NCBI GenBank assembly: GCA_024330215.1
Contig: JANDLU010000021.1
Span: forward strand, 1 to 47,056
Source of the DNA: Candidatus Gaiellasilicea maunaloa
Lineage (GTDB): Bacteria; Actinomycetota; Thermoleophilia; Gaiellales; Gaiellaceae
Reading direction: 5' to 3'
Length of the DNA stretch: 47,056 nucleotides
The number at the start of each line of letters is the position of its first letter. Position 1 is the stretch's first letter. The position numbers and the translations under genes are program-made. Below are positions 25,279 to 45,203 of this stretch, piece by piece. Below the pieces are notes generated by a model, which made no database searches, had not been told where the DNA came from, and saw nothing but the letters and a program-made list of their open reading frames with translations.

Positions 25279-25327
25279 GGGAGGCGCATTCAGGTTGACG
25301 TGTGGGCCAACGCGAAGGAGGGGGCCC

Positions 25328-25352
25328 GTGGGGGAACCATGGGTTCCCCCAC
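25328..25352. repeat. Perfect hairpin with 11-bp stem and ATG loop
   Basis: Arms GTGGGGGAACC and GGTTCCCCCAC around ATG. It lies in the 178-bp divergent gap between the YhaM-like and DUF1015 genes. Confidence 0.6.
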
Positions 25353-25386
25353 GTTCAATGCTCATGGGCTGAGTCTAGGCCGTTGG

Positions 25387-30969: not shown

Positions 30970-31811
30970 GATCTCCTCCTCAGCTCGCCCAGCACGACGG
31001 GGTCGATCGTCGCCTCACCGTCGACGCGCTCCTCCAGGTTCTCGACGCCGGCCCAGTCGGCGAGGCGCTCGTAACCGAGCTTGCCGAGCCGCTCCTGCAG
31101 CTCCGCGCGCAGCTCGTCGTCCACCGGTAGCCAGTCCGAGCGCGGCGTCTTGCCGAACAGGGCCTGGTGGATGCCGTAGATTCGGCGCAGCTCCTCGATC
31201 GGGCGCTCGTGGTCGTCGACGCGAAGGTCGACGACGACGTCGGAGAGGCCCGCGTAGCCGCCGTCGCGCTCGACGGCGAGCAGCGAGGCCGACTGCTGGC
31301 CGCGCCGGTCGCCGCCGGCAGCCTGCGCCGCGGCGAGGCACGCGAGCAGACGCTGCGCAAGGGGGCCGGACGACGCTTCGAACGTCTCGGCGAGCGCGTC
31401 GACCGTCTCGGCCGAGACGAGGATGTTCCCCTGCGCCGCGTAGCCTGGGCCGGTCCGGCCGCCGGCCCAGTCGTGGCACTCCGTGCCGGTGAAGCTCGCG
31501 CTGCGGCCCTCGGCGTCGACGATCCCGAGCTGGCGGCTCTCGCGTTCGTCGTCCGCCTCGGTCAACCGGCGCACGACCTCGGTGGCGGCGAGACCCTGCC
31601 GGAGTAGCGCGAGCCCGTTCGGGCCGTAACGCGGGTTCGCGTACGACTGAGTCGCGACCGCGCCGACGTGCGGCTCGGCCCAGGGCACCACGGAGCCGAC
31701 GGCGAGGAACTTCGACTGCACGGCGACGCCCCACTGGCCGGCATCGAGGTCGCAGGCGACGATCGAGAACGTGCTGACGAGCGGTGCGAAGGGCTTGTGT
31801 TGTTTCAACAC
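30966..31811 (-). CDS. DUF1028 family protein
   Basis: A 281-residue protein with the DUF1028 (Ntn-hydrolase-like) pattern: STFSIVACDLDAGQWGVAVQSKFLAVGSVVPWAEPHVGAVATQSYANPRYGPNGL, GIVDAEGRSASFTGTECHDWAG and GYAAQGNILV. A C-terminal part after residue 220 is a peptidoglycan-binding-like extension. Family proteins normally begin right at STFSIVA; here the only start codons are GTG 31811 and TTG 31808, inside a palindromic repeat, which adds MLKQHKPFAPLV. The role is unknown; relatives occur in amino acid catabolic clusters. Confidence 0.85.
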   Translation of the reverse strand: MLKQHKPFAPLVSTFSIVACDLDAGQWGVAVQSKFLAVGSVVPWAEPHVGAVATQSYANPRYGPNGLALLRQGLAATEVVRRLTEADDERESRQLGIVDAEGRSASFTGTECHDWAGGRTGPGYAAQGNILVSAETVDALAETFEASSGPLAQRLLACLAAAQAAGGDRRGQQSASLLAVERDGGYAGLSDVVVDLRVDDHERPIEELRRIYGIHQALFGKTPRSDWLPVDDELRAELQERLGKLGYERLADWAGVENLEERVDGEATIDPVVLGELRRRS

Positions 31812-31897
31812 AAGCGTCTCTCGAGCCGCGGAGCGGCTCCCGGAGCGGGAATGCGGCCGGCGAGAGTCGGAATGACCTTGTGTTGGAACAACACAAG
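31794..31897. repeat. Composite element with a CTTGTGTTG/CAACACAAG palindrome at each end
   Basis: A palindrome with TTT loop (31794-31814) and one with GAA loop (31877-31897) enclose about 62 bases that hold a 7-bp hairpin (GAGCCGC-GGA-GCGGCTC, 31823-31839) and CTCTCG/CGAGAG arms. The left palindrome supplies the start and first six codons of the DUF1028 gene. A third, solitary palindrome is at 26158-26179. Confidence 0.7.
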
Positions 31898-36206: not shown

Positions 36207-38101
36207 TGAACGGCCACGAAGACGACGACGAGGACGGCGACGGCGGCTGCGATCGCGAGCGCGTAGCTACGGAGATAGCCGCTCTGCGCCTCTCCGAGGG
36301 CGCCGCCTGCGCGGCGGGCGCCGAGCGTGACACCTGAGATCGAGCCGCCGATCAGCGGCTCCTCGATCCAGCGCCGCCAGATCCCGGCGATCCACACCGC
36401 CGGCCGGTAGAAGATCGCGTCGTAGAGCTCGTCGAAGTACAGCTTGTGCTCGAGCACGTCGCGGACGGCCGCCGTGCGCGGAAGCTCCCGCTTCCGCGCC
36501 GCGTAGACGAGCCACGCGATCCCCATCCCGAGCAGCCCGAGCCCGACGGCCAACACGCTCGCAACGTAGTCCTGCGTCACGCTCGGCTCGACGAGCGGCT
36601 CCGCGACGACCTCGAGCCAGTCCCCGAACGGATGCCAGACGCCCGCGATCTGGACCCAGCCGCCGACGACCGCGAGCACGGTGAGCACCGCGACGGGGAC
36701 GGTCATCGTCCACGGCCCCTCGCCGTGGCCGTGTCCGCTGCCATCCCCTTGGGCGTGCTGCTCGACGAGCGGCGAGGGCGCGCCGAGGAAGACGACGAAG
36801 AAGAGCCGGAAGGTGTAGACGCCCGTGAGCAGAGCGCCGACCAGTCCCGCCGCAAACAAGACTTGCCCATAACCGCCGCTCGCCAGAGCGGCGGCGAGGA
36901 TCGAGTCCTTCGAGAAGAAGCCCGAGAGCGGCGGGATCCCGACGAGAGCGAGCGAGCCGACGAGGAAGGCGACGGTCGTTCTCGGCATCACGCTGCGCAC
37001 GCCGCCCATCCGGCGGATGTCCTGCTCGCCGGCGAGGTGGTGGATCACGAGCCCGGCCGCCATGAAGAGCAGCGCCTTGAAGAAAGCGTGGGTCAGCAGG
37101 TGGAACATCCCGCTCCCGTAGGCGCCGAGCCCGACGCCGACGAACATGTAGCCGATCTGGGACATCGTCGAGTAGGCGATCACGCGCTTGATGTCCGTCT
37201 GGACGAGCGCGACGAGGCCCGCGACGAGGAGCGTGACCGCTCCGAGCCCCGCAGCGAGATCCTGGATCGAGGGCGCCAGCTCGAAGAGCGGATGCGCCCG
37301 CACGATCAGGTAGACGCCCGCGGTGACCATCGTCGCCGCGTGGATCAGTGCGGAGACGGGGGTCGGTCCCTCCATCGCATCCGGGAGCCAGGTGTGAAGC
37401 GGGATCTGCGCCGACTTCGCGACCGCGCCGCCGAGCAGGCCGAGCGCAACGAGGTTCAGCGCGGTCGAGGACATGAGCTCCGCGCCCTCGAAAGCACCGG
37501 CGAGTTCGAGCGTCCCGGTCTGCCAGATCAGGACGAAGAAGGCGAGCGCCATCGTCGCGTCGCCGAAGGCGTTCATGATGAACGCCTTCTTGGCCGCCGC
37601 GACCGCCTCGCGTCGCTCGTGCCAGAAGCCGATCAGCAGGTAGGAGGCGAGGCCGACGAGGCCCCAGCCGACGAGCAGGATCAGGAAGTTCCCCGCCTGC
37701 ACGAGCAGCAGCATCGAAAAGACGAAGAACGACATGTAGGCGAAGTAGCGCCGTTCCTCCGGATCGCCGTCCATGTAACCGACCGAGTAGAGGACGATCA
37801 GGCCGCCGACGCCGGAGACGATCAGCATCATCGTCGCCGCGAGCGGATCGACGAGTAGCGTCAGCCCGACCTCGAAGTTCCCGGTCGAGAGCCACGTCCA
37901 GGCCGTCGTCAGGGCGGCGCGCTCCTCCTCGCCGCGGCGGAGCAGCCCGACGAACGTCGCGAGGGCCCCGCCGAAGGCGACGAAGACGGAGAGAGTCGAG
38001 ATCCAGGCCGCCGCGCGACGCGAGATCGTGTCGCCCATCACGGTGATCGTCCAGGCGCCCGCGAGCGGCGCGAGCAGGCAGATCCACGCGCCCGCAGTCA
38101 T
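36203..38101 (-). CDS. nuoL: NADH-quinone oxidoreductase subunit L
   Basis: A 632-residue distal antiporter-like subunit with a long C-terminal lateral helix region. Landmarks are LLVGWGLVGLASYLLIGFW, AQIPLHTWLPDAMEGPTPVSALIHAATMV, IKRVIAYSTMSQIGYMFVG and HAFFKALLFMAAGLVIHH. A His/Gly-rich cytoplasmic or periplasmic loop (HAQGDGSGHGHGEG) is seen before the C-terminal helices. ATG 38101 overlaps the stop of the arginase-like gene, an unusual upstream neighbour for nuoL. Confidence 0.96.
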   Translation of the reverse strand: MTAGAWICLLAPLAGAWTITVMGDTISRRAAAWISTLSVFVAFGGALATFVGLLRRGEEERAALTTAWTWLSTGNFEVGLTLLVDPLAATMMLIVSGVGGLIVLYSVGYMDGDPEERRYFAYMSFFVFSMLLLVQAGNFLILLVGWGLVGLASYLLIGFWHERREAVAAAKKAFIMNAFGDATMALAFFVLIWQTGTLELAGAFEGAELMSSTALNLVALGLLGGAVAKSAQIPLHTWLPDAMEGPTPVSALIHAATMVTAGVYLIVRAHPLFELAPSIQDLAAGLGAVTLLVAGLVALVQTDIKRVIAYSTMSQIGYMFVGVGLGAYGSGMFHLLTHAFFKALLFMAAGLVIHHLAGEQDIRRMGGVRSVMPRTTVAFLVGSLALVGIPPLSGFFSKDSILAAALASGGYGQVLFAAGLVGALLTGVYTFRLFFVVFLGAPSPLVEQHAQGDGSGHGHGEGPWTMTVPVAVLTVLAVVGGWVQIAGVWHPFGDWLEVVAEPLVEPSVTQDYVASVLAVGLGLLGMGIAWLVYAARKRELPRTAAVRDVLEHKLYFDELYDAIFYRPAVWIAGIWRRWIEEPLIGGSISGVTLGARRAGGALGEAQSGYLRSYALAIAAAVAVLVVVFVAVQ

Positions 38102-38922
38102 GCCAGCGCCCTCGCGGCGAGCAGGCGCAGGACGATCGCCCGAGCCGCCGGCGGGATCGCGCCGTCCGGATCCTCGTCGGGGTCGTAGGCCGTAACCGCG
38201 GCGGCGCAAACGGTGAAGCGGGCCTGCACCGCGTCAACGGCTAGCTCGAGTTCCTCCAGCGTGAAGCCGCCGTCGCAGGCGAATCGATTCGCCCGGCCGA
38301 CCGAGGGATCGAGGACGTCGAGATCGACGTGGAGATAGACGTCGCTGACACGCTCACGCAGCGTGTCCAGCGCCTCGTTGAGGTCGGCTGCTTGTGCGCG
38401 CAGAACCGGCGCCGATGTGAGCCGCTGCTCCTCTGCCGAGTCCAGGTCGCGCGCTCCAGCGAGGACGACGTGCCTCACGGGTACGGGCACGTGACCCGCG
38501 ATCGTCGCGCGGAGCGCCGCCCAGCCGGACCCTGTGAGCAGTGCGAGCGCCATCCCGTCGAGAAAGCCGCTGCTCGTCGTCTCGGGCGTGTTGAAGTCCG
38601 CGTGCGCGTCGAGCCAGACGACGCCGACAGGAATCCCGAGACCCGCGACCGTGCCCAGCGAGCTGTGGCAGTTACCTGCGAGCACGAGGGGGAAGCGATC
38701 CGCTGCGCCGACGTCGCGCACCTGCTCCCGGACTCCGCGAACGATCTCGAGGCAAGCCGCCGTCTCGTTCAGAGAAGCATCCGCGGGTGCGACCACCACC
38801 GTGTCGTCCGCCAGGTCGGCCAGCGTCTCGGCCAACACGGGCACGCCCGCGCCCATCCCGCCGTCGCGACCGAGGTCGTAGGGCACCTGGATCAGTGTCG
38901 TTGGCACGAGCGTCGTTCTCAT
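38098..38922 (-). CDS. Arginase/agmatinase-family protein embedded in the nuo operon
   Basis: A 274-residue ureohydrolase-fold protein. All six expected manganese ligands are present: H86 in GNCHSS, D105/H107/D109 in WLDAHADF and D200/D202 in VDLDVLDP. The first motif is GNCHS rather than the usual GGDHS. The substrate-binding loops are not those of a typical arginase or agmatinase, so the substrate is open. ATG 38922 was chosen; a GTG at 38940 would overlap nuoK by eight bases. Its stop overlaps the nuoL start (ATGA), so it is translated with the complex I genes. Confidence 0.85.
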   Translation of the reverse strand: MRTTLVPTTLIQVPYDLGRDGGMGAGVPVLAETLADLADDTVVVAPADASLNETAACLEIVRGVREQVRDVGAADRFPLVLAGNCHSSLGTVAGLGIPVGVVWLDAHADFNTPETTSSGFLDGMALALLTGSGWAALRATIAGHVPVPVRHVVLAGARDLDSAEEQRLTSAPVLRAQAADLNEALDTLRERVSDVYLHVDLDVLDPSVGRANRFACDGGFTLEELELAVDAVQARFTVCAAAVTAYDPDEDPDGAIPPAARAIVLRLLAARALA

Positions 38923-38932
38923 CCGTCCGAGC

Positions 38933-39238
38933 TCAGCCACGGAGCACCCGGAAGCGGTCGACGTCGAGGACGAGCTTGCGTCGCGCGACCGCCACGATCA
39001 GGCCGAGGCCGACGACGACCTCGGAGGCGGCGACGGCCATCACGGCGAGCGCGAAGATCTGACCGTCGTGGTCGCCGTGCAACCGCGAGAAGGAGATCAG
39101 GGCGAGGTTGGCGGAGTTGAGCATGATCTCGAGCGAGAGCAGCACGATCAACGGGCTGCGGCGCAGCAGGACCCCGAGCGTGCCGATCGAGAAGAGGAGC
39201 GCCGCCACCACGAGGTACCAGGTGACGTCAGGCCCCAT
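38933..39238 (-). CDS. nuoK: NADH-quinone oxidoreductase subunit K
   Basis: A 101-residue three-helix subunit. The conserved glutamates in LLSLEIMLNSANLALISF and ASEVVVGLGL mark NuoK, part of the membrane proton path. The start overlaps the nuoJ stop by one base (TGATG). Confidence 0.95.
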   Translation of the reverse strand: MGPDVTWYLVVAALLFSIGTLGVLLRRSPLIVLLSLEIMLNSANLALISFSRLHGDHDGQIFALAVMAVAASEVVVGLGLIVAVARRKLVLDVDRFRVLRG

Positions 39239-39792: not shown

Positions 39793-39817
39793 CAGTGGCT
39801 CTCCCGGTGACCGTTTC

Positions 39818-39931
39818 GCATTCCAGCCGCGCGAGCTGCAAGCGATGCAAGGACGCAGGGAGCGTCCAGGCTGGTTTGCCTGGACGCGACTGAGGACGCG
39901 GCAGCGCGCCGCACATCGCGCGGCTGGGATG
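39818..39931. repeat. Nested inverted repeat between nuoI and nuoJ
   Basis: Outer arms of about 17 bp (CCAGCCGCGCGA/TCGCGCGGCTGG plus flank, one wobble) enclose a perfect 10-bp hairpin (GCGTCCAGGC/GCCTGGACGC, 39862-39887) and further GGACGC repeats. The whole is about 114 bp and fills the nuoI-nuoJ gap. No open reading frame is seen in it. Confidence 0.75.
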
Positions 39932-39955
39932 CCCTAACTGTTGCCGGGAGGGCCA

Positions 39956-40450
39956 CTAAGAACTGGACCTGTAGACGGGAATCGGGGTGTCGTAGAGGTC
40001 GCGGTCCGCGACCGGCACCGTCTTCATCGGCGGCGCCAGCAGCATGTCCTTCGTGTAGATCAGGTCGTCGCGCGAGTACTCGGAGATCTCGTACTCGTTG
40101 CCGAGCGTGATCGCGTCGAACGGGCAGGCGAGCTCGCAGTACCCGCAGAAGATGCAGCGGCTGAGGTTGATCTCGTAGATCCGCGCGTAGCGCTCCCCGG
40201 CCGAGACGCGATTCTCGGCGGTGTTCTCCGCCGGCACGACCCGGATGCAGTCGGCCGGGCAGGCGGCGGCGCAGAGCGAGCAGCCGACGCATTTCTCGAG
40301 CCCGTTCTCGTGCACCTGGAGCCGGTGCCGCCCGCGGAAGCGCGGGTAGACGGGCCGCTTGTACTCCGGGTACTGCTGCGTGATCGGCTTCCTGAAGATC
40401 TGCCGGAAGGTGACGGCGAAGCCCTTCGGGGTTCCCCAGCCGCTGCTCAC
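39956..40450 (-). CDS. nuoI: NADH-quinone oxidoreductase subunit I
   Basis: A 164-residue ferredoxin-like subunit of the peripheral arm. The two tetranuclear cluster motifs are CVGCSLCAAACP and CIFCGYCELACP. It passes electrons from NuoG to NuoB. The start is GTG 40450, with GGAGG ten bases upstream; that GGAGG is base-paired within a 13-bp hairpin. The gap to nuoH is 55 bases. Confidence 0.96.
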   Translation of the reverse strand: MSSGWGTPKGFAVTFRQIFRKPITQQYPEYKRPVYPRFRGRHRLQVHENGLEKCVGCSLCAAACPADCIRVVPAENTAENRVSAGERYARIYEINLSRCIFCGYCELACPFDAITLGNEYEISEYSRDDLIYTKDMLLAPPMKTVPVADRDLYDTPIPVYRSSS

Positions 40451-40451
40451 G

Positions 40452-40480
40452 CCGAATCGCCTCCTTCGGAGGCGATTCGG
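40452..40480 (-). promoter_or_regulatory. Hairpin enclosing the nuoI Shine-Dalgarno sequence
   Basis: Arms CCGAATCGCCTCC and GGAGGCGATTCGG (13 bp, perfect) with a 3-nt loop; the downstream arm contains the GGAGG used by nuoI. Confidence 0.7.
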
Positions 40481-40505
40481 TTGGGAAAGGCGATGTTGCG
40501 GCGGC

Positions 40506-41495
40506 TCACAGCGCTACCACCAGAATGGCCGTCACCACTGCGTTCAGGGTGGCGACCGGAAGCAACACTTTCCAGCCGAAGCGCATGAGCTGGTCGTAGC
40601 GGAGGCGCGGCAGCGTCGTCCGGATCCAGATGAAGAGGAAGAGCAGAGCGAGCAGCTTGACCAGGAACCAGATCGGGCCGAGCCCGTCCAGGAAGAAGAA
40701 GTGCCAGCCGCCGAGAAAGAGCGTCACGGCGAGGCCGGAGAGCGTGATCAGGTTGATGTACTCGCTCATCGTGAAGAGGCCGAAGCGCATCCCGCCGTAC
40801 TCGGTGTGGTACCCGGCGACGAGCTCCTGCTCGGCCTCGGGCAGGTCGAACGGCGCCCGCGCGGTCTCCGCGGTCCCGGCGAGGAGGAAGACGACGAAGC
40901 CGACGAACTGCGGCACGACATACCACCACGTTCCGTCCTGCCCGGCCACGATCTCGGTCAGCGAGAGGGACTGCGCCATCAGGACGACGCCGAGGACGCT
41001 GAGCGCGAGCGAGACCTCGTAGGAGACGAGCTGCGCGCACGTGCGCATTGCGCCGAGGAGCGCGAACTTCGAGTCGGAGGCCCAGCCGGCGACGATGAAG
41101 CCGAATGTGCCGATCGACCCGATCGCGAAGATCAGGATCAGCGAGATCGGGACGTCCACGACCTGGCCGTCCACCTGGTAGCCGAAAATCTCCCAGCCCG
41201 GCCCGAACGGGATCACCGAGAACGTCGAGAGCGCCGTGAAGGCGGCGACGAACGGGGAGGCGATGTAGAGGACGTCGACCGCAGAGGCGGGGAAGAAGCT
41301 CTCCTTCCGGATCAGCTTCATCAGGTCTGCGGCCGGTTGCAGGAGCCCGAACGGGCCTGCACGGTTCGGCCCATAGCGGAGCTGCATCCGTCCCATCACC
41401 TTCCGCTCGGCGAGCGTCAGGTAGGCGAAGCCGACGAGGACGAGGTTGATGATGATCAGGGCCTTGATCACGCTGATCCACCACGGCTCGGTCAT
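40506..41495 (-). CDS. nuoH: NADH-quinone oxidoreductase subunit H
   Basis: A 329-residue membrane subunit with about eight helices that forms the quinone chamber with NuoB and NuoD. Landmarks are AERKVMGRMQLRYGPNRAGPFGLLQPAADLMKLIRKE, AETARAPFDLPEAEQELVAGYHTEYGGMRFGLF and IRTTLPRLRYDQLM. ATG 41495 overlaps the nuoG stop by four bases, and its ribosome site lies inside the nuoG coding end, within a hairpin. Confidence 0.96.
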   Translation of the reverse strand: MTEPWWISVIKALIIINLVLVGFAYLTLAERKVMGRMQLRYGPNRAGPFGLLQPAADLMKLIRKESFFPASAVDVLYIASPFVAAFTALSTFSVIPFGPGWEIFGYQVDGQVVDVPISLILIFAIGSIGTFGFIVAGWASDSKFALLGAMRTCAQLVSYEVSLALSVLGVVLMAQSLSLTEIVAGQDGTWWYVVPQFVGFVVFLLAGTAETARAPFDLPEAEQELVAGYHTEYGGMRFGLFTMSEYINLITLSGLAVTLFLGGWHFFFLDGLGPIWFLVKLLALLFLFIWIRTTLPRLRYDQLMRFGWKVLLPVATLNAVVTAILVVAL

Positions 41496-43717
41496 GCCCT
41501 TTCACCTCCTGCGGAGGTGAAAGGGTTAGAAGATCTCGAGACCTCGACGGTCGTTCCGAGGTCGCGGGCGTGTTCCTCTGCGATTCGCGCGACGCCCGGC
41601 GGCAGGCGTCTATCGATTCTCGCGCGCAGCGTGAGAATCGACTCGGAGCGGACCGTCACTGAATCGCCGTTCCGGATCTGGCGCCGCTCCGCATCGGCGG
41701 CGGCGAGCTCGACCTCGGCAGCCGGCCGCTGGAACCGGAGCTCGGGGACGCGCTCGACCGTCGGGCCGGAGAAGAGCGGCCGGTAGCGGAGCAGGCGGAG
41801 CGTGCCGAGGAAGTGCTCGGCAGGTGCGGCCGCCGGGGGCGGGATCGGGGCGACGGGACGCGGCTCCGGCGGCTCATAGGCCGCGCGCGCCGGCAGCGGC
41901 GCCCGCTCACCGACGTCGCCGAAGCTCGCCTCGCCGCCGTAGACCGTCTCGGCCAGCTCGGCGAAGACGAGCGAGGCGTGCGGCGAGATCTCGACGCCGA
42001 AGCGGGCGGCGAGCTTCGAGATCCAGCCGAGCTCGTCGGGAACGGGCGGGATCACGCTTCGGCGCAGGCGCTGGACGCGGCCCTCGAGGTTGACGAACGA
42101 GCCGTCGCGCTCCAGGTAGCTCGTGGCCGGCAGGACGAGGTCGGCCCAGCCCACGGCGAGTCCGTGGTACATCGTGATCGCAAGCACGTGCTCCGCCTTC
42201 TCCGCGAGCGCGCGCACCGCCGGATCGGCCGCGGCCTCGTCCCCCGAGACGATCAAGAGGCCGATCGGCTCGGGGTTCGCCTCGTCGCGGTCGGCCGCTG
42301 CGGCCCAGGCCTCGGCGACTCCGCGACCATTGGGCGTTGCCGGTAGGTGGAAGGCCGAGCAGCCGGGCTTGCCGTCGAAGCCGAGCGAGTGTGCAAGCTC
42401 CGCGAGCCGGGCACCGCCCCCGCCGGCGCGGCCGGACCAGATCAGGACGGCGCGGTCGGAGGAGCGCAGCCGCTGCTCGAGCTCGGCATCGAGCTTCGGC
42501 TCCGCCAGCTCGACCACGTCGCCGCCGTTTCGGCGAGCCTGCTTGATCCAGAGCCCGACGATCGGGGCGCGGTCGGCGACGCGCTCCTCGCCGATCACGA
42601 CGACGACCTCCGCGTGCCCGATCGAGGAGAGCGGCGCCCGGAAGGCGTCGAGCGCCGACGAGGTCGCCTCGGGCAGGACAGCGGAGTGGGCGCCGAGCCC
42701 GACGCGCAGCAGCCGGCCGAGTGCGTAGGCCTCCTCGATCGTCTCCGACCCCGAGAGCGCGGTCACGATCCGGCCGCCCGCTCCGCGCAGGAGCGCCTCC
42801 GCGCGGTCGAGCCCGTCGTCCCAGGAGATCTCGCCGAAACCGCGCCGGCGCACGCGCTCGAGCGGGGTCGCGATCCGATCCTCGGCGTACAGGTGCGGGT
42901 AGGCGAAGCGCCCCTTGTCGCAGAGCCAGCCCTGGTCGACCTCGGGATGGTTGCGGGAGAGGATCCGCTTGACCTTGCCCTCGCGCGTCGTCGCGCTGAT
43001 GTTGCAGCCGACGGGACAGAGCCCACAGATCGTCGGCACGTTCTGGATTTCCCACGGCCGCGCCTCGAAGCGGTACTGGGTGGAGGTGAGCGCGCCGACG
43101 GGACAGAGCTCGATCACGTTGCCGCTGAACAGGTCGCGGTACGGCTCGTCCTCGAAGGTCGCGATCATCGACATCGAGCCGCGATTACGCGCGACGAGCT
43201 GGCCGTCCTCGGCGACGCTCTCCGAGAAGCGCGTGCAGCGGTAGCAGAGGATGCAACGCTCGCGGTCGAGCGCGATCGTGGGCGAGATCGGGATCGGCTT
43301 GTCGAGCGTGCGCTTCGGAAAGGTCATCCGCGTCTGGCCCGGCCCGTAGCGAAAGGTCAGGTCCTGGAGCGGGCACTCGCCGCCCTTGTCGCAGACCGGG
43401 CAGTCGAGTGGGTGGTTGACGAGGATGAACTCAAGCGTCGCGTTCTGCCCCTCGGCGGCCTTCTCCGACGTCGCGCCGGTACCGACGACCATCCCCTCCT
43501 GCGCCGTTAGCGTGCAGCCGGCCTGCAGCTTCGGGATCCCCTCGACCTCGACGAGGCACATCCGACAGGCTCCGACGGGCGGCCCGAGCCGCGGCTCGTA
43601 GCAGAAGACCGGGATCTCGATCCCCGCGACGGCGGCCGTCTCCACGAGCCCGGTGCCCTTCGGCACCTCGACCACGCGCCCGTCGATCGTCAACGTCACG
43701 TTCTCGGGGGCACTCAC
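41492..43717 (-). CDS. nuoG: NADH-quinone oxidoreductase subunit G
   Basis: A 741-residue molybdopterin-oxidoreductase-like subunit. The N-terminal ferredoxin domain holds the 2Fe-2S ligands (CYEPRLGPPVGACRMC...C), then the HPLDCPVCDKGGECPLQD segment, the CILCYRC and C..CPVGAL ligands and the MopB-like CGLCPVGCN. The C-terminal half is a catalytically empty MopB fold. GTG 43717 is preceded by AAGGGGA. The last codons form a hairpin over the nuoH ribosome site. The 160-bp gap upstream to nuoF holds two inverted hairpins. Confidence 0.95.
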   Translation of the reverse strand: MSAPENVTLTIDGRVVEVPKGTGLVETAAVAGIEIPVFCYEPRLGPPVGACRMCLVEVEGIPKLQAGCTLTAQEGMVVGTGATSEKAAEGQNATLEFILVNHPLDCPVCDKGGECPLQDLTFRYGPGQTRMTFPKRTLDKPIPISPTIALDRERCILCYRCTRFSESVAEDGQLVARNRGSMSMIATFEDEPYRDLFSGNVIELCPVGALTSTQYRFEARPWEIQNVPTICGLCPVGCNISATTREGKVKRILSRNHPEVDQGWLCDKGRFAYPHLYAEDRIATPLERVRRRGFGEISWDDGLDRAEALLRGAGGRIVTALSGSETIEEAYALGRLLRVGLGAHSAVLPEATSSALDAFRAPLSSIGHAEVVVVIGEERVADRAPIVGLWIKQARRNGGDVVELAEPKLDAELEQRLRSSDRAVLIWSGRAGGGGARLAELAHSLGFDGKPGCSAFHLPATPNGRGVAEAWAAAADRDEANPEPIGLLIVSGDEAAADPAVRALAEKAEHVLAITMYHGLAVGWADLVLPATSYLERDGSFVNLEGRVQRLRRSVIPPVPDELGWISKLAARFGVEISPHASLVFAELAETVYGGEASFGDVGERAPLPARAAYEPPEPRPVAPIPPPAAAPAEHFLGTLRLLRYRPLFSGPTVERVPELRFQRPAAEVELAAADAERRQIRNGDSVTVRSESILTLRARIDRRLPPGVARIAEEHARDLGTTVEVSRSSNPFTSAGGERA
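41497..41525 (-). promoter_or_regulatory. Hairpin enclosing the nuoH Shine-Dalgarno sequence
   Basis: Arms CCCTTTCACCTCC and GGAGGTGAAAGGG (13 bp, perfect) with a 3-nt loop; the whole hairpin is also the last nuoG codons. Confidence 0.75.
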
Positions 43718-43736
43718 GAACCGTCCCCTTGGGCCG

Positions 43737-43860
43737 TGTCCGGGGTCAAAGCCCGGACATGTCCCTCGCCGACGCTGACGTGCGCCGCATCCCGCACAAC
43801 GCGACCGGTTGCCAGATCGGTCATGTCCTGCGGAGCCGCGTCCGGGCTTTGACCCCGGGC
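43737..43860. repeat. Inverted pair of GTCCGGG hairpins between nuoF and nuoG
   Basis: One hairpin (43737-43759: TGTCCGGG-GTCAAAG-CCCGGACA) and its inverted copy (43840-43860: GTCCGGG-CTTTGAC-CCCGGGC) stand about 80 bases apart, with CATGTCC flanks. They can each fold alone or pair with one another. Confidence 0.75.
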
Positions 43861-43877
43861 ATGTCCGCAAACGACGG

Positions 43878-45203
43878 TCATGCCGGCACCTCTGCAACGG
43901 GGCTCTGCGTGTGCTGGTTGACCGGCGCGACGACTCCATCCAGTGGGGACTGGCTTCCGAACGGGCAGCCGCCGTCGAGATGCGCGAGAAACTCGTCGCG
44001 GAACTTGAGCACGTAGCTCGCCACCGCCATCGCGGCCGTCTCACCGAGCGGGCAGAGGCACTTGCCGTTGATCCGGTCGCACACGTCGAGCAGGAGATCG
44101 AGCTCCGAATCGCTCGCCTCGCCCGCCTCCAGCTTGCGCAGGATCGCGGTCATCCAGCGCGTACCTTCGCGGCACGGCGTGCACTTGCCGCAGGACTCGT
44201 GCTCGTAGAACTCGGACACGCGGATCCCGAGCTGCACCATGCAGCAGCGATCGTCGATCGCGATCACTCCGGCCGAGCCCATCGCCGTCCCGACCTCGGC
44301 GAGGGCGTCGTAGTCGTAGGGGACGTCGATCTCCTCCGCCGTCAGGATCACGGTCGAGGAGCCGCCGGGAATCACGGCCTTGAGCTCGCGCCCGTCCGGG
44401 ACGCCGCCGCCGAGGTCATAGATCAGCTCCCGCAAGGTGATCCCGTGCGCGACCTCGTAGTTGCCGCCGCGGACGAGGTTGCCCGAGAGCGAGACGACGC
44501 GCGTTCCCGTGGAGCTCTCGACCCCGAGCTTGGCGTAGGCCGCGCCGCCCATCGCGACGATCGGCGGCACCGTCGCCAGCGTCTCCACGTTGTTGACGAC
44601 GGTCGGCGAGGCGTAGAGACCCGAGATCGCCGGGAAGGGCGGCTTCGAGCGTGGCTGACCGCGCTTGCCTTCGAGCGACTCGAGCAGCGCCGTCTCCTCG
44701 CCGCAGATGTACGCGCCCGCGCCGCGATGGACGACGATCGTGACCCCGCCGAGGAGCTGGTCATCCTCGCGGATCTCCTCCAGCGCGTCGCGCACCGCCT
44801 CGAACGGACCGAGGTACTCGCCCCGGATGTAGACGAAGACGTGCTTCGACTCGACCGCGTGCGCCGTGATCAGGCAACCCTCGATGAAGCGGTGCGGCAC
44901 GCGCGAGAGGATCTCGTTGTCCTTGAAGCTGCCCGGCTCGGACTCGTCGGCATTCACGACGAGGTAGTGCGGGTTCGGGTTCTGATCGGGCTTCGGGATG
45001 AAGCTCCACTTGCGCCCGGTCGCAAAGAACGCGCCGCCGCGGCCGCGCAGGTTCGAGGCGAGCAACTCGTCGATGACCGCCTGTGGCGTCAGCGCGCGCG
45101 CCTTCGCGAGAGCGTCGTAGCCGCCGATCGCTCGATACTCGGCGAGCTTCGTCAGGTCACGCTCGTCGGCGCCTTGGAGAACGACCAGGCGTTGCTCAGC
45201 CAT
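43878..45203 (-). CDS. nuoF: NADH-quinone oxidoreductase subunit F
   Basis: A 441-residue flavoprotein subunit, the NADH entry site. NADH/FMN-binding segments are LRGRGGAFFATGRKW and VHRGAGAYICGEETALLES; the 4Fe-4S ligands are ESCGKCTPCREG plus the later cysteine in CDRINGKCLCPLGE. The start ATG 45203 overlaps the nuoE stop by eight bases. Confidence 0.96.
   Translation of the reverse strand: MAEQRLVVLQGADERDLTKLAEYRAIGGYDALAKARALTPQAVIDELLASNLRGRGGAFFATGRKWSFIPKPDQNPNPHYLVVNADESEPGSFKDNEILSRVPHRFIEGCLITAHAVESKHVFVYIRGEYLGPFEAVRDALEEIREDDQLLGGVTIVVHRGAGAYICGEETALLESLEGKRGQPRSKPPFPAISGLYASPTVVNNVETLATVPPIVAMGGAAYAKLGVESSTGTRVVSLSGNLVRGGNYEVAHGITLRELIYDLGGGVPDGRELKAVIPGGSSTVILTAEEIDVPYDYDALAEVGTAMGSAGVIAIDDRCCMVQLGIRVSEFYEHESCGKCTPCREGTRWMTAILRKLEAGEASDSELDLLLDVCDRINGKCLCPLGETAAMAVASYVLKFRDEFLAHLDGGCPFGSQSPLDGVVAPVNQHTQSPVAEVPA

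Follow-up and report, generated by a model that had tools for sequence, protein, structure and literature searches.

Tagged palindromic hairpins at nuoG/nuoH and other gene junctions in a Gaiellaceae genome

Hairpins in the nuo operon

Open reading frames in the window (the whole 47,056-nt stretch of DNA analysed) carry NCBIfam assignments as NuoF, NuoG, NuoH and NuoI (Table 1). The NuoG family match starts at residue 111 of the longest open reading frame, therefore the true nuoG start is situated further in, at ~43.7 kb. At the nuoG/nuoH junction the minus-strand order is GAGATCTTCTAA – CCCTTTCACCTCC – GCA – GGAGGTGAAAGGG – C – ATGACCGAG. The stem is exactly as the initial annotation had described it: all 13 pairs are Watson-Crick with no mismatch, and the loop is 3 nt. 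Two other parts of that description also hold, i.e. that the nuoH Shine-Dalgarno (SD) sequence is within the stem (GGAGG in the 3′ arm, 9 nt before the nuoH ATG) and that nuoG translation passes through it. The stem lies entirely inside the last nuoG codons (...SRSSNPFTSAGGERA, then stop), and the nuoG stop overlaps the nuoH start as ATGA. In many relatives NuoG ends with VEV and a few residues before the stop; here ~12 extra codons (SSNPFTSAGGER) are attributed to an insert with presumed exact ends.

The 121-nt region around the stem folds better than 200/200 shuffles (z = −3.7), and the stem by itself gives −22.9 kcal/mol. The nuoH start region (−40 to +20) gives −27.5, a value equalled or bettered by 10% of random 60-mers of the window; at the genome's 69% G+C this total is unexceptional. 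The unusual feature at the nuoH start is the perfect local palindrome, not the total folding energy.

A twin hairpin that the initial annotation does not mention is found before nuoI, with C and then the nuoI GTG directly after the stem. The nuoH and nuoI hairpins are ~1 kb apart and display a common layout (CTAA/CCAA flank, 13-3-13, GGAGG-N9-start), with different stem sequences. No Rfam match at gathering score is found anywhere in the window.

Table 1. Positions of genes, hairpins and related features in the nuo region of the window
Feature	Position	Strand	Basis or remark
Longest ORF containing nuoG	41492..44044	−	NCBIfam; ORF list
TTCTAA tag, common to hairpin family	41526..41531	−	adjoins 5′ foot of nuoG/nuoH stem
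nuoG/nuoH hairpin CCCTTTCACCTCC-GCA-GGAGGTGAAAGGG	41497..41525	−	13 bp, 3-nt loop; within nuoG coding end; GGAGG 41505-41509
~12 extra NuoG codons attributed to insert	41498..41533	−	presumed exact ends
ATGA, nuoH start overlapping nuoG stop	41492..41495	−	sequence reading
nuoH	40506..41495	−	NCBIfam
20-codon mini-ORF VSRRNIAFPNRIASEGGDSA, then stop	40447..40509	−	GTG in nuoH stop, TGA on nuoI GTG; GTGAGC at both ends
Twin hairpin CCGAATCGCCTCC-GAA-GGAGGCGATTCGG before nuoI	40452..40480	−	inverted-repeat scan; GGAGG 40460-40464
nuoI	39956..40450	−	NCBIfam
Family-like hairpin CCCTTCT-AGCCAAGTAACA-GTC-TGTTACTTGGCT at nuoN stop codon	33288..33314	−	hairpin scan

The operon shows two further features. 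An arginase/agmatinase-family open reading frame (38098-38940, minus strand; TIGR01229, E-value = 4e-26, below cut-off) is situated between the nuoK and nuoL positions. The nuoI/nuoJ junction (~39804-39957) carries another dispersed repeat of ~150 bp, GCGTCCTCAGTCGCG...GCTCCCTGCGTCCTTGC, with further copies at ribosomal-protein junctions in L062 and at many sites in genome G001.

A dispersed hairpin family with a CTAR tag

The host genome (G000; Gaiellaceae, Thermoleophilia) was sampled by stretches, ~1.09 Mb, and scanned for hairpins over 387 kb and then 1.07 Mb. There are 103 perfect hairpins (at least 10 bp, loop 3-5) in the 1.07 Mb, with about one tenth as many in a Markov control; those of at least 13 bp reach 44 per Mb in the first 387 kb versus 0 in a Markov shuffle. 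A count of 4-mers, made with no preset motif, shows CTAA at the 5′ hairpin foot 71-fold enriched (16 seen versus 0.23 expected), with TAAC 38-fold and CTAG 11-fold enriched at hairpin feet. The 24 CTAR-class hairpins in the 1.07 Mb have unrelated stems, most of which open with CC and finish in GG, frequently with C as the next base; the loops read on the CTA strand are mostly GNA or GTCA. The family layout consists of a (Y)TTCTAR-CC tag, an arbitrary perfectly pairing stem, a GNA/GNNA loop and GG-C. Only ~8-10 nt are common to the copies, and a copy-and-paste element is therefore not proven. Genome-wide, the sequence CCTCCNNNGGAGG is found at 12 sites, with stems of 5-6 bp at 9 and of 11-13 bp at 3, the latter being nuoG/nuoH, nuoH/nuoI and ispD.

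Members at gene starts are found at nuoH, rplF, rpsH, tuf, cmk, dnaX, rpsP and ispD. Members in mirror orientation are found at the ends of rpsH, fusA, rpoB and rplO, and another after the nuoN stop; many copies lie at operon junctions. Outside nuo, genes were named by reading their translated N- or C-terminal ends rather than by family search. GTGAGCAG flanks the rpsH/rplF spacer on either side, as GTGAGC does at nuoH/nuoI; these resemble short target duplications but could be coincidental. Y1_Tnp, scored per genome, shows 4 copies in G000 and none in G087, which also bears hairpins. The open-licence literature yielded no description of such a hairpin family in Thermoleophilia.

Other hairpins were also encountered. 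A minus-strand rpsQ (S17) at L062:12400-13260 carries a very long acidic N-terminal extension holding two in-frame CTAR-class hairpins. What appears to be the rpoB/rpoC junction (L063:9797-9834, minus strand) carries a perfect palindrome of 17 bp, with the stop codon of the upstream gene in its loop. A second hairpin family, (GA)GCTTGTGTTG-NNN-CAACACAAGC(TC), has a stem that is conserved between copies and is found at 31793-31815 of the window and in L063, L065, L066, L071, L144 and L150. A third, CGTGGGGGAACC-NNN-GGTTCCCCCACG, is found at 25327-25353 of the window and at L069:4559-4631, L150:158 and L164:8344. An integron attC site, suggested by TCTAAC, was ruled out by inspection, since the opposite side of that stem has no GTTRRRY.

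Distribution, upstream frames and paired stems

The in-frame RTGA overlap is present in 22 of the 61 distinct nuoG/nuoH junctions read in relatives, and none has a perfect 9-bp stem with a short loop. One of the 22, G009 from another genus, displays an imperfect CTAACC hairpin with the 13-3-13 layout in the same phase. The nuoG/nuoH stem is not a conserved nuo device: 21 relatives share the overlap without a comparable stem, a situation that the initial annotation had itself named as speaking against its proposal. G087 (L238; another genus) has a different, perfect hairpin at nuoG/nuoH, read in nuoH's own frame; it is outside the 61-junction count because its NuoH is without the anchor motif. 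G001 is of the same genus as G000, with 98% identity over its partial NuoH; the nuoH/nuoI hairpin is not present there (CTCTATGAGCAGCGG), and its contig does not reach the nuoG/nuoH junction. Among the relatives that were readable, only this genus has the dnaX hairpin. Hairpins of this kind are far scarcer in the relatives G031 and G019. A search of 103 family genomes with the pattern CTAACCN{12,40}GGCRTG gave, among the matches listed, true hairpins only in G000, G001, G087 and G089; the others look like chance. Upstream of dnaX in G008 (L214), a differently flanked hairpin, GGTAGAGCTTTCGC-GCCAG-GCGAAAGCTCC-ATG, adjoins the start.

The overlap without a stem in 21 relatives, the like hairpins elsewhere and the lack of one at G001 nuoH/nuoI indicate that overlap coupling was probably there first. 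The hairpin was most likely added to the nuoG/nuoH overlap later, in this lineage.

The upstream frame through the hairpin ends on the downstream RTGA start at nuoH, nuoI, rplF, cmk, dnaX and G009 nuoH. This frame is nuoG itself at nuoH and the mini-ORF, from the nuoH stop to the nuoI start, at nuoI. A leader ORF of 15-36 codons takes this role at rplF, cmk and dnaX, again ending on the downstream start, and the dnaX and cmk leader ORFs are open in G001 as well. The rpsH and rpsP leader ORFs end just past the downstream start. An RTGA-ending upstream frame is thus present at 5 of the 6 GG-C-RTG starts examined in G000 (nuoH, nuoI, rplF, tuf, cmk, dnaX); tuf has the hairpin, but no leader ORF crosses it. 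A mini-ORF of 30 codons links rpsJ and rplC in G087 and overlaps both genes. As looked for in translational coupling, the downstream SD is paired, the upstream ORF reads through, and there is an overlap or a short distance. The phased frames at nuoH, nuoI, rplF, cmk and dnaX thus make the combination of hairpin and predicted coupling a recurrent one here.

Stem sequences change while pairing is kept. Between G000 and G001 the cmk hairpin keeps its stem and changes its loop. The dnaX stems are CCGCGTTTCGCCC/GGGCGAAAGGCGG in G000 (one mismatch) and CCGATTTCCGCCC/GGGCGGAAATCGG in G001, i.e. two full double base-pair changes in 13 bp between two species of one genus; this pair was picked up by a pattern blind to the stem. 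Across eight aligned 13-3-13 members 96% of cells are paired, both-sided change occurs at 9/13 pairs, and the covariation score is 0.80 versus 0.04-0.18 with slid partners, figures that lean upward because most members were picked for near-perfect stems. One-sided pair changes number 0 among 104 aligned cells, and G-U pairs are present in some copies (rpsP). As judged from these alignments, pairing rather than sequence is maintained across the family.

Origin and predicted role of the hairpins

Rickettsia palindromic elements are palindromes that protein genes tolerate within their reading frame. The present hairpins share the in-frame location within protein genes, but are much shorter (~30-60 nt), are situated at operon junctions and have unshared stems (the Rickettsia elements are mentioned in PMC10969869). 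REP sequences tagged GTAG or CGTC are dispersed 20-40 bp palindromes with short loops (PMC3733652). The present hairpins resemble them in having a tetranucleotide tag left unpaired at one end, short loops, pairs in opposite orientation and some copies inside genes. However, the tag here is CTAA/CTAG, the copies are without a common stem sequence, and they are found at gene starts with an SD and start codon. Ribosomes opening a stem over a downstream ribosome site are established in other operons, e.g. f1 VII/IX and rpmI-rplT (review PMC12548453). The structure over the downstream site and the −4 nt overlap are alike, the opening here being presumed, but in this case the structure belongs to a putative insert that recurs across the genome and is specific to the lineage. 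Bicistronic designs and leader-ORF reinitiation (PMC10367133, PMC4833913) also have a short leader ORF that crosses the second cistron's SD and ends at or near its start; here, however, the arrangement is natural, in multiple copies and with a perfect hairpin in each. Tagged palindromic repeats are here joined to predicted leader-ORF coupling.

The initial annotation proposed translational coupling that sets the NuoG:NuoH ratio and joins the arms of complex I. The coupling part is retained as a prediction, given the SD in the stem, the overlapping upstream ORF and the recurrence in phase elsewhere; the nuo-specific part is not supported. Although the SD inside the stem, the ATGA overlap and the different-stem hairpins at nuoG/nuoH of G009 and G087 would suit a dedicated, selected nuo device, it is improbable: all other relatives read are without the hairpin, including the 21 with the same in-frame overlap, the G087 copy is read in nuoH's own frame, G001 has none at nuoH/nuoI, and like hairpins occur at rplF, rpsH, tuf, cmk, dnaX, rpsP, ispD and gene ends. 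Hairpins that process or stabilise mRNA by flanking AU-rich spacers between cistrons would account for the hairpin pairs on either side of AT-rich spacers, as at rpsH/rplF and fusA/tuf; many copies have no spacer or partner, and nuoG/nuoH has none, so that this explanation is very improbable. An intrinsic terminator or attenuator, which the strong stem and short loop might suggest, is hardly to be entertained. A T run is missing after the nuoG/nuoH stem on either strand, the mRNA strand having C and the start codon next, and there is no Rfam match; the terminator was rejected on the missing T run.

The palindromes could also be neutral and kept up at the DNA level: template switching within a strand, or copying directed by hairpins in single-stranded DNA, would keep the two arms matched, and effects on translation would be incidental. 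The lack of one-sided changes in 104 cells favours such copying of arms, and arms copy neighbouring gene ends at rpsH and rpoB. The loop types cGNAg and cGNNAg are extra-stable in DNA, and the one-strand loops match them. However, the CTAR tag is left unexplained, as are the phase and the RTGA endings at five of the six starts examined. The phasing of the hairpins and their location speak for selection acting on translation, and some copies do have G-U pairs; this origin is rather unlikely.

The better explanation, and probably the right one, is that recent, lineage-specific short palindromic inserts, whose phase would let an older overlap coupling persist, account for the nuoG/nuoH hairpin. 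It takes in the observed family and tag, the presence and absence at orthologous sites, the covarying stems and the phased frames. The inserts are most likely CTAR-tagged and REP/RPE-like. Hairpin pieces would have arrived as insertions that, at gene starts, carry or cover the SD. Each insert would be open in the traversing frame, and the upstream gene or an insert-made mini-ORF would end on the downstream RTGA. Ribosomes finishing the upstream frame may then open the stem and re-initiate, from nuoG to nuoH and from nuoH through the mini-ORF to nuoI, and coupling older than the insert would survive. For cmk, dnaX and rpsP this explanation needs translation of the predicted leader ORFs.

More tentatively, the hairpins may represent an undescribed class of mobile or self-renewing CTAR-tagged palindromes, with stems free in sequence yet always fully paired, that invades overlapping gene junctions, each copy building a phased mini-ORF and SD hairpin and turning essential operons into natural bicistronic designs. 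If this holds, either a mutational process or a small parasite of the genome would have rewired the translation starts of ribosomal protein, EF-Tu, dnaX and complex I genes with operons unbroken, and there would be many natural replicates in which to ask whether coupling works by unfolding or re-initiation. Stems that change within a genus yet remain paired offer a test of RNA selection versus DNA-level arm copying.
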